Shown: positions 36,877 through 41,892 of the stretch, piece by piece
How positions within the stretch are numbered: position 1 is the stretch's first letter
Layout: the number at the start of each line of letters is the position of its first letter
From: an uncultured Micrococcales bacterium
Lineage (GTDB): Bacteria; Actinomycetota; Actinomycetes; Actinomycetales; Microbacteriaceae
Direction of reading: 5' to 3'
NCBI GenBank assembly: GCA_913062975.1
Contig: CAJXZO010000002.1
Coordinates: forward strand, 1 to 64,000
Length of the DNA stretch: 64,000 nucleotides
Notes under the pieces: generated by a model
The model's input: the letters and a program-made list of their open reading frames with translations, nothing else
The model's database searches: none
What the model was told of the DNA's origin: nothing
Program-made: the position numbers and the translations under genes

Positions 36877-36974
36877 AATTGTGGGTCAATTCCTTGTATT
36901 GGAATTGCGGCAAGATAACGAGCCAACTGGAGGACTAACCCTATTGCAAACTTGGAGATGATTGTTGGTAATCG

Positions 36975-37047
36975 TGGCCCCGAGAAGAATCGAACTTCCG
37001 ACACACGGTTTAGGAAACCGTTGCTCTATCCACTGAGCTACGAGGCC
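36975..37047 (-). tRNA. tRNA-Arg (anticodon CCT)
   Basis: A 73-nt cloverleaf on the minus strand. Acceptor GGCCTCG pairs with CGGGGCC (one G-T), the anticodon stem ACGGT/ACCGT encloses TTCCTAA with anticodon CCT, and the T loop is TTCGATT; discriminator A, no CCA. TAATCT (minus strand 37063-37058) is a probable -10. The rest of the 333-bp gap between sulP and the helicase-like gene holds nothing else I can identify apart from the promoter at 37199. Confidence 0.95.
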
Positions 37048-37198: not shown

Positions 37199-37204
37199 TA
37201 AGAT
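37199..37204 (+). promoter_or_regulatory. leaderless -10 of the helicase-like gene
   Basis: TAAGAT ends 6 nt before the GTG start at 37211, the spacing of a leaderless promoter. Confidence 0.5.
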
Positions 37205-37210
37205 TCGGGT

Positions 37211-40200
37211 GTGAGTGAAATCTTTCAGCAATGGCAATCCTGGCAGCAGGAGTTAGCCGAGCTGGGTGGCAGAAACCCGCTTGCTAATTTTGAGCTGTCC
37301 AATTTCTCACATGTAGACCTAACCCGCTCACACCCCTCTGGTTTGGCGCAACTTGTGGCGGCTAGAAGCACCAGAAATTCCAACCTGATCAGGGATGGAA
37401 TTGCCCAAGGGCGATCGAATTCAGCAATTAGGAGAATCAAGGATAAATCCGAACAGCTCAACCGCGACTTTGGATTGCAATCATGTTTTCTCGCTGGAGG
37501 AATGGTTCGCTTTAGCGAAGACGATAAAACTTTTCCAATGATTTTGTGGCCGGTGGAGATTGGCGAGAAAAGCGATGACTACCAAATAACCGTTGGCGAG
37601 GAGCCAGTTCTAAATCCTGAACTGTTGGCCTATGTCGAATCCAAGGGGATAGTTCCATCCAAACTCGAGCTTCTAAGGCTTGCTCGCAAACAGGGGGAGC
37701 TACTACCAGTTAGGTTCTTGGAGCGTTTTAGCGAAATCCTTTCTGAGACCAAAGCAGAGATTGATCGAATGCTGGTGATTGGTAATTTCACCCCTCAGCT
37801 AAGCGAACTGAAAATCGCTAATAGTTTTGTTGAAACCGGTATTGTTCAAAGGCTCGTTGATTCAGCCCCAATCAACGAAAAGCCACAGTTACCTTTGTTG
37901 GTCCTTCCCGCAGATCAGCAGCAGAACTCAATCCTTTCTTCAATTGCCGCTGGCAATGATGCGGTGGTGGAAACTCTGCCAGGTTGTGGCTACACCCAGT
38001 TAGCGGTGAATTCGATTGCAACGCTTTTGAATTCGGGTAAGCGGGTATTGGTTGTAAGCAATCGTCGACAGACTCTTGATGAGCTCTCGGAAAGACTGGC
38101 TCAGGTTAATCTGCAAGGATTGATGATTCGTGGCCACAACAGCTGGCTTGACATGATTGGTTCGATTTCCAGATTTGAAAAGGCAGAACCGGTTGATTTC
38201 AAATCACTAGAGAAAAAAGTTTCAACCGCGGAGGAAAATCTGCAGGAGTATTTCCATCTGCTAAACCAGCCTCACACCGATCTCGGTGTTTCGCTTATTG
38301 ACTGTATTGACAAATTGAGTGAACTATCCGCAAGGGATGAGCCCGCGACCAATTCAGCTCGATTCCCCGAAGAGATGCTGGTTCAGCTCAAAGATTCTGA
38401 ATCTGCGATGGAGTTATTGAAAAAGGCCAATAAAGCAGGGGTATTTAGTTACGGAGCCTCAGACACCTATTGGTTCGGAGCTCAGTTTGATAACCAGCAA
38501 CAAATTGACTCCGCACTGCAATCAGTTTCAGAACTGGTTGATGGAGATCTGGACAGCGCGATGAAGCAATTGGCCGAGTATTTTGACAACTTGAGCCTGA
38601 CTCCCGCAAAGACCGTCGAGGACTGGTCGGTGCAGGTGAAGCTGTTGGTTGGAATTAGGGAAACTCTGGATAAGTTCACACCCGAGATCTATGACCGACC
38701 ACTGGGAGATTTGATAACTGCCACTGCGTCCAGGCAAGAGCGAAAAGAAATGAGTGGCGCTCAACGCAGAAGGTTTAGAAAACTGGCCAAGAGTTATCTC
38801 AGACCTTCCGCACAGGTTGGTAATTTGCATAACGCCCTGGTGGATGCCCAGAAACAAAGAGAGCTTTGGTATGAATTGGCAGACACAAAAGCACCACCAT
38901 CGGTGCCAACCGGGTTGGCTAATGTCTCCAATGTCTTTGAACGAGTTGCTGAGCGGATAACTGGAATCCAGAAGCATCTCAACAATGATCCGGACATTGA
39001 GCTTCTCAGCAGGCTCAGCTTTGCTGATTTGAAGACGAAGTTGCAAGGATTAAGTGAGAAGACAGAAATCCTGGATGGCTACCTAGACAGAAAAGAAATC
39101 AGTGCGAAGTTGGATGCCGCTGGTTTGAGTGATCTGGCTGAGCAGTTGACCGAAATTAAGCCAAATAAGCAGCGTCTTTTGAATGAGTTTCAACTCAGCT
39201 GGTGGCAATCAGCTTTTGAGTCGGTGGTTAGTCAAAACCAAAAGATTTTGGAATATGACGCAGAAAGAATTGCAGAGCTAGAAAAACAATACGAGCAATC
39301 ACATCAAGATTTGATTGACGCAGGTTCTGCCAAGCTGAGCTACCAGCAATCCAAAAACTGGAAGTCCTCTCTTGAAAACACCGAACAAGCCGACAAGCTG
39401 AAGGAACTTCTGAAGCTTAGAGAAAGCTCTATGAAGACAATTGCCGCCAAGGCAGAAATGATCTGGCCAAGTCTTAGCAATGTGGTGGGTGTTTCTCCGA
39501 TGGAGCTTCAATCAAAACTGTTGGATGAGGAGAAATTTGATGCCTGCATCGTGATGGATGCTGCCAGTGTCGGCGTTGCAGAGATAATCCCCTCGCTGAA
39601 TCGCTGCAAGCAGTTAGTAGTGTTTGGTGATCCGCAGATAGCAACTGCGATGAATTTCAATACCATCGCACTCTCTGCCTCAGCCGAGCTTGCTCCAAGA
39701 CAGAGCTTTTTTGAATATGCCCAGCAAGCTTTTGGAAGCAGCAGCATTTCCAAAAGCTATAGACCCCACGGACAGGTTTTGGGGGAGTATTTGAACTCTG
39801 AGTTTTATCAAAACAGGTTGAATCTGAACCTGACCGCTAATCAGGTTTTGGAAAAATCAAATTACGAATTCGTTCACGTGAGTGAACACAATAGAGCCCA
39901 ATCAACCATTGAGGGTGCCACTGAATCGGCCGATGGTGAGCTAAGAAGTGTTGTTCAGTTGGTGATGAATCACGCAAGAAGCCACCCCGAGCAATCACTT
40001 ACCGTTTGCAGTGCCTCTGCAACCCATGCCGAACGCATCCAAACAGCATTGCAGGCGGAGCGATTGAAATCAGCCGAGCTAGACACTTTCTGGGAGTCAC
40101 ATGGACGCGAAAAATTGTTCATAAGCTCACTTGCAAACCTCGGTCACCGAGTTAGCGACCGAGTGATTTTCTCGCTGGGATTCGCGCTAACACCAGAGGG

Positions 40201-40774
40201 CAGGGTGAAGCTGAGCTTTGGTGACCTAAGTGGTGAACAGGCAGCCGTGAACTTGGCCAACCTGATTGCCACCTCCAGAAAAAACCTAACGGTGGTCAGT
40301 TGCATCAGTGATGAAGATTTGCCAAAAAACAGCACGGCATCAGAGATTTCCAGAATCAGAAATCTTATCAATCACCCGCAACCAGAGCTTGATTACCAAA
40401 AATCTGAAGACCCACTTTTGTTTGATTTAGCAACTAGGTTGCGAAAGCGTGGTGTCCGAGTGATTGAAAACCCAGCACCTGAAATCAGCATGCTCGCTCT
40501 TCATGGAAACAGAGTTGCTTTTATTGATGCCGACTGGGAAATCATGAACAAAGACTGGAGGCTCTATCTGAGCGGAGCTCGCAAAGTTTGGTCGCAATAC
40601 GGTTTCCTCTATCAAAGAGTGCATGTATTTGAGCTATTCAGTGAGCCAGACAGTGTTGCCAAGAGATTGACCGATGTGCTTGAAGTGAATACTTTCATCG
40701 AAAAACCAACCGCTACCAACTTTGATAGCAACGATCAAGACCTGTTGGATAATCGACCACCACACTGGTCCTAA
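37211..40774 (+). CDS. large SF1-helicase-like protein with degenerate ATPase motifs
   Basis: A 1187-aa protein laid out like DUF4011/Upf1-type SF1 helicases. The P-loop position reads LPGCGYTQ (256-263) with Tyr261 instead of Lys; Walker B reads VMDAAS (782-786) instead of DEAS; then VVFGDPQ, SYRPHG and RVIFSLGFALTPEGR follow as later motifs. Long coiled-coil segments lie between about 330 and 720. The last ~110 residues (LRKRGVRVIENPAP, VAFIDADW) resemble a nuclease-like REase domain with altered residues. ATPase activity is doubtful. Single gene after tRNA-Arg. Confidence 0.72.
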   Translation: MSEIFQQWQSWQQELAELGGRNPLANFELSNFSHVDLTRSHPSGLAQLVAARSTRNSNLIRDGIAQGRSNSAIRRIKDKSEQLNRDFGLQSCFLAGGMVRFSEDDKTFPMILWPVEIGEKSDDYQITVGEEPVLNPELLAYVESKGIVPSKLELLRLARKQGELLPVRFLERFSEILSETKAEIDRMLVIGNFTPQLSELKIANSFVETGIVQRLVDSAPINEKPQLPLLVLPADQQQNSILSSIAAGNDAVVETLPGCGYTQLAVNSIATLLNSGKRVLVVSNRRQTLDELSERLAQVNLQGLMIRGHNSWLDMIGSISRFEKAEPVDFKSLEKKVSTAEENLQEYFHLLNQPHTDLGVSLIDCIDKLSELSARDEPATNSARFPEEMLVQLKDSESAMELLKKANKAGVFSYGASDTYWFGAQFDNQQQIDSALQSVSELVDGDLDSAMKQLAEYFDNLSLTPAKTVEDWSVQVKLLVGIRETLDKFTPEIYDRPLGDLITATASRQERKEMSGAQRRRFRKLAKSYLRPSAQVGNLHNALVDAQKQRELWYELADTKAPPSVPTGLANVSNVFERVAERITGIQKHLNNDPDIELLSRLSFADLKTKLQGLSEKTEILDGYLDRKEISAKLDAAGLSDLAEQLTEIKPNKQRLLNEFQLSWWQSAFESVVSQNQKILEYDAERIAELEKQYEQSHQDLIDAGSAKLSYQQSKNWKSSLENTEQADKLKELLKLRESSMKTIAAKAEMIWPSLSNVVGVSPMELQSKLLDEEKFDACIVMDAASVGVAEIIPSLNRCKQLVVFGDPQIATAMNFNTIALSASAELAPRQSFFEYAQQAFGSSSISKSYRPHGQVLGEYLNSEFYQNRLNLNLTANQVLEKSNYEFVHVSEHNRAQSTIEGATESADGELRSVVQLVMNHARSHPEQSLTVCSASATHAERIQTALQAERLKSAELDTFWESHGREKLFISSLANLGHRVSDRVIFSLGFALTPEGRVKLSFGDLSGEQAAVNLANLIATSRKNLTVVSCISDEDLPKNSTASEISRIRNLINHPQPELDYQKSEDPLLFDLATRLRKRGVRVIENPAPEISMLALHGNRVAFIDADWEIMNKDWRLYLSGARKVWSQYGFLYQRVHVFELFSEPDSVAKRLTDVLEVNTFIEKPTATNFDSNDQDLLDNRPPHWS

Positions 40775-41298
40775 AAAGTTCTAATGGTTTTCTCGGTGAT
40801 AACCCCATCGATTTTCACGTCATGACTCTCCATTGGCAGAGACTCAAGATATTCAGATTCAAAAATCAACGCATAAACCAACCCTTGGAAATCCGCTAGA
40901 GCTCGGTCGTAATAGCCAGCACCCTTGCCAAGTCTGATTCCTTTTGAATCAACCGCCAGAGCGGGGGTGACAACCAGTGAGATTTCTGAAAGTTCAACCT
41001 TTGGACCAATTGGGCTCAGGATTCTGTGTGGGCCGGGGATGAGTTTCTCAGGGATTCTCCAGATCAAATTAGAACCACTTATTTCGGGCAAAACAAGTCT
41101 TTGACTTTCTGCCAGCAGATTGTTTAGGGCTTTTGTTTCTGGTTCAGTGTCAGTTGCTGAATAACTTGCAATCAATCCTGACTGAGATTCAACTAGCCCT
41201 TTTGCCTGCAGCGAGAAGTCTTGGGGCTTGGCGTGAGCGTTTCTGGTTGTCAGCAACTGCTTGCGAATTGCCTGTTTCTCGGTCTCGATTGCGGACAT
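40771..41298 (-). CDS. 5-formyltetrahydrofolate cyclo-ligase
   Basis: Converts 5-formyl-THF to 5,10-methenyl-THF using ATP. The 175-aa protein has the signature GIRLGKGAGYYDRAL and a typical LVVTPALAVDSKG strand. The frame reaches 41334, but ATG 41298 (MSAIETEKQAIRKQ) is the family start. Its end overlaps the helicase-like gene by 4 bp (convergent). The divergent acetyltransferase starts 18 bp away, with a shared -10 region between them. Confidence 0.93.
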   Translation of the reverse strand: MSAIETEKQAIRKQLLTTRNAHAKPQDFSLQAKGLVESQSGLIASYSATDTEPETKALNNLLAESQRLVLPEISGSNLIWRIPEKLIPGPHRILSPIGPKVELSEISLVVTPALAVDSKGIRLGKGAGYYDRALADFQGLVYALIFESEYLESLPMESHDVKIDGVITEKTIRTF

Positions 41299-41303
41299 GC
41301 TAC

Positions 41304-41310
41304 TAATCTT
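41304..41310. promoter_or_regulatory. shared bidirectional -10 element
   Basis: Plus strand TAATCT (41304-41309) ends 7 nt before ATG 41317; minus strand AAGATT (41310-41305) ends 6 nt before ATG 41298. The two hexamers share five base pairs, so both genes may be transcribed from one symmetric -10 in opposite directions, each leaderless. Confidence 0.55.
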
Positions 41311-41316
41311 GCCAGC

Positions 41317-41892
41317 ATGGATGCCGCATTCCAATTAGTTTCAAACGAGGTCAATGTCAGACCTCTTCGCTTGCGGGACTGGCGAGACCTTGAATCAATT
41401 CTGATGTCAGAGAGAAAATGGTTAGAGCCCTGGGAGGCGACAGTTCCGGGAGGCTCAAGATTACTGGATGTCAAAGGAATGGTTCGAAGCCTGCTCAGGC
41501 AGCACCGAGAAGGTTCTGCATTGGCTTGCGTGATTGAGGTTGATTCCAAAATCGTCGGTCAGGTGAATGTTGCAAACATTTTGTATGGGTCGGTATCTTC
41601 AGGCTCCATTGGTTATTGGATCAGTGAAAAATATGCTGGCAGGTCAATCACCCCAACAGCAGTGGCACTGATCAGTGATTACATGTTCAATCAAATGAGA
41701 CTTCACCGAGTGGAGATTGCCGTCAGGCCCGAAAACGAAGCCAGTCTGCGGATTGTTGAAAAGTTGGGTTTCAGATTTGAGGGGCTAAAGGAGCGGTATA
41801 TCCACATCAACGGCGACTGGCGCGACCACAAAATCTTTGCTCTCACCAGAGATGAAGCCAGAAAAGGTTTGATTTCCCGCTTAGAAAGATAG
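41317..41892 (+). CDS. RimJ-like GNAT N-acetyltransferase
   Basis: A 191-aa acetyltransferase of the RimJ/RimL group, beginning with VNVRPLRLRDWRDLESI and carrying the acetyl-CoA-binding IGYWISEKYAGRSI-type loop and AVRPENEASLRIVEKLGF. Such proteins acetylate ribosomal-protein N-termini; the true target is unknown. ATG 41317 is chosen over the upstream open frame (41221) because TAATCT is placed 7 nt before it. In related actinobacteria this gene stands between a gephyrin-like glp/moeA gene and glpR; here glp is missing. Confidence 0.85.
   Translation: MDAAFQLVSNEVNVRPLRLRDWRDLESILMSERKWLEPWEATVPGGSRLLDVKGMVRSLLRQHREGSALACVIEVDSKIVGQVNVANILYGSVSSGSIGYWISEKYAGRSITPTAVALISDYMFNQMRLHRVEIAVRPENEASLRIVEKLGFRFEGLKERYIHINGDWRDHKIFALTRDEARKGLISRLER

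Follow-up and report, generated by a model that had tools for sequence, protein, structure and literature searches.

The closest known systems are the intact helicase-nucleases of the DUF4011-AAA_11/AAA_12-MTES_1575 type, which keep GKSQT, DEASQ, GDERQ, the Gln-Gly of motif V and the nuclease Asp. The SF1B helicases IGHMBP2, Upf1, Sen1 and Dna2 share the same helicase-core fold with the protein described here, but are active ATPases, lack DUF4011 and carry a different insertion. Two further proteins, the nearest precedents from experiment, offer analogies of working rather than of membership: PriA of Deinococcus, which belongs to SF2 and not to SF1, and RecC, whose helicase core is inactive. 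D. radiodurans PriA has no ATPase or unwinding activity, yet it binds DNA and is able to interact with DnaB, and Deinococcus-Thermus PriA has an Arg for the P-loop Lys, a change that on its own is reported to have abolished the ATPase and helicase activities of E. coli PriA (PMC4504706). The nuclease-like domain of RecC is devoid of activity and provides a hoop for ssDNA (PMC1185551). Finally, the anti-phage proteins Hhe, ProA and PDC-S37 share an SF1 region with our protein, and a DUF4011 gene is used in P. aeruginosa as the locus marker of a defence hotspot (PMC10250203).

The window, i.e. the whole stretch of 64,000 nucleotides analysed here, comes from a Microbacteriaceae assembly of 1.14 Mb in 32 contigs (79% complete). 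Its list of ORFs includes a GTG-started gene of 1187 codons, whose product has the same domain order as the intact helicase-nucleases and is related to them in sequence. By descent, the protein is thus of the DUF4011 helicase-nuclease kind, but it belongs to a pseudoenzyme branch and is not an active member, because the catalytic features of the family are missing from it. The features of the gene and its surroundings are as follows.

36974-37047, minus strand: tRNA-Arg(CCT), adjoining the gene
37199-37204, plus strand: -10-like element TAAGAT, 6 nt 5' of the GTG (candidate leaderless promoter); read from the sequence, with TANNNT elements at relatives
37211-40774, plus strand: predicted pseudohelicase-pseudonuclease gene, 1187 aa; ORF with homologues across the family, under purifying selection
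37253-37630, plus strand: DUF4011 N-terminal domain, residues 15-140; Pfam PF13195, 27.8 bits (cut-off 22.2)
37898-38200, plus strand: N-terminal half of RecA-like lobe 1A, residues 230-330, with Q motif (Q238), P-loop remnant and motif Ia; alignment and AlphaFold2 model
37991-37993, plus strand: codon of Tyr261, in the Walker A lysine column
38201-39481, plus strand: residues 331-757, a long helical insertion that separates motif Ia from motif II; DSSP applied to the AlphaFold2 model
38621-38890, plus strand: most conserved block in Microbacteriaceae, residues 471-560 (RETLDKF...RRR...LAK.Y.RP); mean pairwise identity
39536-39568, plus strand: degenerate motif II, FDACIVMDAAS, residues 776-786; ungapped alignment
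39626-39643, plus strand: motif III, residues 806-811, Gly-Asp kept and Gln lost; alignment
39755-39772, plus strand: motif IV region SYRPHG, residues 849-854, Arg851 kept; alignment
39815-40339, plus strand: RecA-like lobe 2A, residues 869-1043, motif V Gln-Gly lost and motif VI Arg1023 kept; alignment
40412-40690, plus strand: Vsr-like PD-(D/E)xK domain, residues 1068-1160, Asp of column 1093 lost; MTES_1575 in relatives and fold match
40771-41334, minus strand: convergent 5-formyltetrahydrofolate cyclo-ligase-like (5FCL) gene, part of the conserved neighbourhood; name read from the sequence

The gene is near-universal in its family: a homologue is found in 198 of 200 Microbacteriaceae genomes (179 of the 180 high-quality ones) and in all 85 genera. 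The copies are usually single and full-length, with 30-44% identity outside the genus, and the loci bearing genus names place Microbacteriaceae as the closest family (Aquiluna, Rhodoluna, Leucobacter, Clavibacter, Cryobacterium, Microbacterium and others). At the level of the order, 117 of 119 genomes have a homologue (112 of 113 in the high-quality set). At the level of the class, matches are restricted to 29 of 118 genomes, i.e. to the order, to one family of another order (f38) and to a few single families, and several of them are short matches to the P-loop region. Even genomes of 0.7-1.4 Mb retain the gene. In four genomes, the matches contain one or two in-frame stop codons (TGA, in one case with TAG), which could stem from local decay, from errors of assembly or from an alignment that overran.

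The surroundings are conserved as well. In most families of the order, and in f38, the gene faces a block of MscL, SAF-like, FmdB-like and 5FCL-like genes, followed by GalU and GNAT-like genes, all these names being our own reading of the sequences rather than profile assignments. In the window, the stop of the helicase-like gene and the convergent 5FCL-like ORF overlap by 4 bp (40771-40774). No functional hint was seen among the neighbouring genes. The initial annotation had placed the gene next to a tRNA-Arg, as is indeed the case, and had proposed a leaderless promoter of its own. A TANNNT element followed, after 6 or 7 nt, by GTG or ATG precedes the gene at seven related loci, most of those inspected, and this recurring spacing makes a leaderless start plausible.

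The window protein matches Pfam AAA_11 with 38.5 bits (cut-off 27) in addition to DUF4011. Its AlphaFold2 model, built on a 63-sequence alignment, has a mean pLDDT of 88.2 and a pTM of 0.75. Among solved structures, its best match is IGHMBP2 (Z 19.7, rmsd 4.9, 482 residues aligned), closely followed by Sen1, Aquarius, Dna2 and Upf1 (Z 16-20 for the SF1B set). A search of the PDB by sequence returned nothing but weak similarity of the P-loop region to Upf1 and IGHMBP2. Judging from the model, the helicase core, with its two lobes 1A and 2A, is thus of the SF1B, IGHMBP2/Upf1-like type, in agreement with the helicase assignment made initially.

Several motor residues of this core are lost. The initial annotation had noticed a Tyr at position 261 in place of the P-loop lysine, as well as the loss of the motif II acidic pair, and had named an alignment of homologues as the way to judge both. 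We took as the reference for loss seven intact homologues, all of which have K, D and E at columns 261, 782 and 783, and compared them with 119 Microbacteriaceae sequences in an alignment made by adding sequences to an existing one. Walker A reads TLPGCGYTQ in the window protein, so that GK[ST] is absent. The lysine column is never K in the 119 Microbacteriaceae (G 73, Y 32, S 7, A 5, L 2) nor in the 65 other non-intact homologues, an absence that chance is far from explaining. A single decayed copy is therefore ruled out, since homologues are near-universal and none in Microbacteriaceae has the P-loop Lys.

Motif II aligns without gaps (FDVVIFDEASQ of intact homologues, VDVVVVDDAGQ and the FDACIVMDAAS of the window protein), which shows that the initial reading of DAAS for DEAS, correct as to the loss of the pair, was off by one residue. 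In this alignment, the change is Asp to Met in the Mg2+ column (782) and Glu to Asp at 783, and not Glu to Ala. Column 782 is never Asp in Microbacteriaceae (V 70, L 39, M 4, A 3, I 3) and column 783 is always Asp (119 of 119). Four loci of another family (f16) have DD at motif II, possibly a step on the way from DE to the hydrophobic-Asp pair of Microbacteriaceae. Both GDPQ (806-809) and SYRPHG, also reported initially, are present in the window protein; the motif III Gln is gone from the Microbacteriaceae consensus.

The seven intact homologues share 197 invariant positions. Of these, 64 persist in 95% or more of the Microbacteriaceae and 32 have disappeared, the latter including K261, D782, E783, Q978-G979 of motif V, and D1093 and D1120 of the nuclease. 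Q238, G258, G260, Q263, R285, D783, G806, D807 and R851 are invariant in Microbacteriaceae, and R1023 nearly so (118 of 119); two of these residues are fixed switches (Lys to Arg at 285, Glu to Asp at 783). In the other families of the order, erosion has often gone further and in different directions. In f38, whose homologues share the same locus wherever the neighbours can be read, six loci read GTGRTQT or GSGRTQT, with Arg where the P-loop Lys would stand, and their motif II has Glu-Asp instead of Asp-Glu. The loss is family-wide and nearly order-wide, which goes beyond what a single sequence had suggested.

The C-terminal region had been called nuclease-like from the sequence of the window protein, and its fold bears this out. 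Pfam MTES_1575 is matched by 47 of 49 members at E-values up to 0.1, the domain of the window protein itself giving no match. When modelled alone, the C-terminal 122 residues (pLDDT 81) align with 3hrl (Z 9.1, rmsd 2.4, 86 residues), I-Bth0305I (Z 8.0) and Vsr 1cw0 (Z 7.6, rmsd 2.8, 94 residues). Foldseek returned no match below 0.001 for this domain, so that the Vsr-like, MTES_1575-type assignment rests jointly on the Pfam hits and on this second-look alignment. What had been missed initially is the loss of a catalytic residue: column 1093, Asp in all seven intact homologues, is mostly G, P, A or S in Microbacteriaceae (43, 35, 28 and 7, respectively), and the set of catalytic Asp plus E-x-D is thus incomplete. 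The nuclease is probably inactive. As the E/D-x-D pair is kept (mostly E or D at 1106, D at 1108), its loss is nevertheless less certain than that of the ATPase.

The gene is under strong purifying selection. An unsaturated Aquiluna pair gives a dN/dS ratio of 0.076, and two sequences within another Microbacteriaceae genus give 0.225; the value of 0.03 obtained within the genus is indicative only, dS being saturated. Block 471-560, Arg/Lys-rich and helical, has a mean pairwise identity of 0.61 in Microbacteriaceae versus 0.48 in the intact homologues, whereas the region of motifs II and III, the most conserved among intact genes (0.63), falls to 0.50 in Microbacteriaceae. Conservation could thus have shifted from motifs II and III to the 471-560 insert, but this is suggestive only, because the sets compared are unequal in size and in divergence.

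Intact relatives bear on how the loss came about. Rare homologues keeping GKSQT and DEASQ (L102/L111, L103/L144/L161, L146 and L148) occupy the same MscL/SAF/FmdB/5FCL locus and are therefore orthologues by position; another intact homologue, L160 (the same gene as L070), lies off that locus and served as the outgroup. Trees were built without the motif columns, one with 87 rows and a second with 48 rows under a mixture model. The intact genes of families f5 and f18 form a supported group beside a large dead clade, with dead f18 members nested among the intact ones, and two losses require the fewest changes on the 87-row tree. As f38 and f25 have no settled placement in the mixture-model tree, a third loss is possible. 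An active ancestor has thus lost catalysis repeatedly, at least twice, since regaining all the residues is implausible.

All these results point to a vertically inherited pseudohelicase-pseudonuclease, likely acting as a nucleic-acid-binding scaffold or as a loading or recognition factor that partners an active enzyme, and we consider this explanation as a whole to be probable. It agrees well with one of the two options of the initial annotation, a scaffold or DNA-binding factor that has lost the use of ATP. Domain architecture, fold, the family-wide disappearance of catalytic residues, intact relatives at the same locus and purifying selection are established computationally; we infer that the protein would have no ATPase and probably no nuclease activity, would bind nucleic acid and would have a partner. 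The other option was an altered nucleotide site. The protein could hold ATP or a different nucleotide that it does not hydrolyse, or use a relocated basic residue instead of the lysine, and work as a nucleotide-controlled clamp. The invariance of the Q motif, the P-loop glycines and Gln263, Arg285, Asp783, Gly806-Asp807 and Arg851, with the near-invariance of Arg1023, would suit residual nucleotide binding and counts against a full loss of the ATP site; the two fixed switches likewise speak for a modified site. However, the lysine column drifts freely among G, Y, S, A and L, bulky Tyr and Leu included, and the Mg Asp, the motif III Gln and the motif V Gln-Gly are damaged together. Furthermore, the second P-loop Gly is often lost in the other families of the order, which indicates that the trend is one of erosion. 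Such a switch is therefore unlikely. A search for a relocated lysine of the WNK type, made among positions that changed and then became fixed, yielded K285 to R and some new invariants (E323, R496, R627 and E791 among them) and nothing else, and this idea was set aside.

A helicase or nuclease still active with a non-canonical site would fit the preserved order of motifs, the kept motif VI and the remaining nuclease pair; it is very unlikely, as at least six motor residues and Asp 1093 are gone together and as K to R was reportedly sufficient by itself to abolish the ATPase and helicase activities of E. coli PriA (PMC4504706). A functionless relic or slowly decaying pseudogene hardly deserves credence: the dead branch does diverge faster than the intact homologues (branch lengths, 87-row tree), but ORFs are full-length in nearly all genomes, the leaderless start is conserved, the gene persists in small genomes and the low dN/dS rules out neutral decay. 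An anti-phage protein akin to Hhe, ProA or PDC-S37, whose dead core would sense or bind phage nucleic acid, is improbable too. The PADLOC model of PDC-S37 is matched with 231 bits (E 6e-69, in a tool without cut-off), and the DUF4011 gene of P. aeruginosa is likewise a core gene, flanking a defence hotspot (PMC10250203). But the ProA and Hhe matches (174 and 93 bits) lie far under the NCBIfam cut-offs of 1500 and 2000 bits, these models are much longer (1797-1903 positions), and a near-universal, vertically inherited core gene at a fixed locus is unlike a mobile defence gene. Membership of a defence island thus finds no support in the NCBIfam scores or in synteny. Since the gene is near-universal at a fixed locus, calling it a defence system from its PDC-S37 match would, as these data suggest, be an over-call; with such an E-value, defence surveys of the order may count this core gene as a phage-defence candidate.

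To return to the scaffold explanation, the ATPase motor of a DUF4011/SF1B-type helicase-nuclease would have been inactivated, and probably its nuclease too; strong purifying selection maintains the fold and a large part of the putative path of the nucleic acid. The protein would then act on nucleic acid as a scaffold or loading/recognition factor for an active enzyme, in the manner of Deinococcus PriA and RecC. PriA resembles it as a helicase that a lineage preserves in spite of a degenerate Walker A Lys and degenerate Walker B residues (PMC4504706), and the K to R change of PriA is also seen in the P-loop of the f38 homologues. PriA differs by that Arg, by the lack of a nuclease-like domain and by a known role in replication restart. 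The likeness to RecC lies in the inactive nuclease-like domain, but RecC works inside RecBCD, and no sequence relationship between the two proteins was seen here. More tentatively, one possibility is an order-wide core factor of chromosome maintenance or nucleic-acid processing, with a new scaffold function centred on the basic helical insert 471-560, and possibly the recognition subunit of an undescribed, RecBCD-analogous complex. One UvrD_C search of the 79%-complete genome returned two helicases of that type only (753 and 633 aa) and no large AdnAB/RecB-like protein, and the analysis found no partner for the protein.

As nearly the whole order retains the gene at one chromosomal position, and as selection on it is strong, a widespread but undescribed role is very probable; no paper describing the protein was found in the literature searched, including that on pseudoenzyme helicases of Actinobacteria. 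A gene of about 3.6 kb is thus kept at a fixed locus in nearly the whole of a large order, even in genomes near 1 Mb, without a described function, and is liable to be misread as an ATPase/helicase or as a defence gene. The intact relatives found at the same locus in a few families make up, with it, a before-and-after pair for the passage from a motor enzyme to a scaffold.
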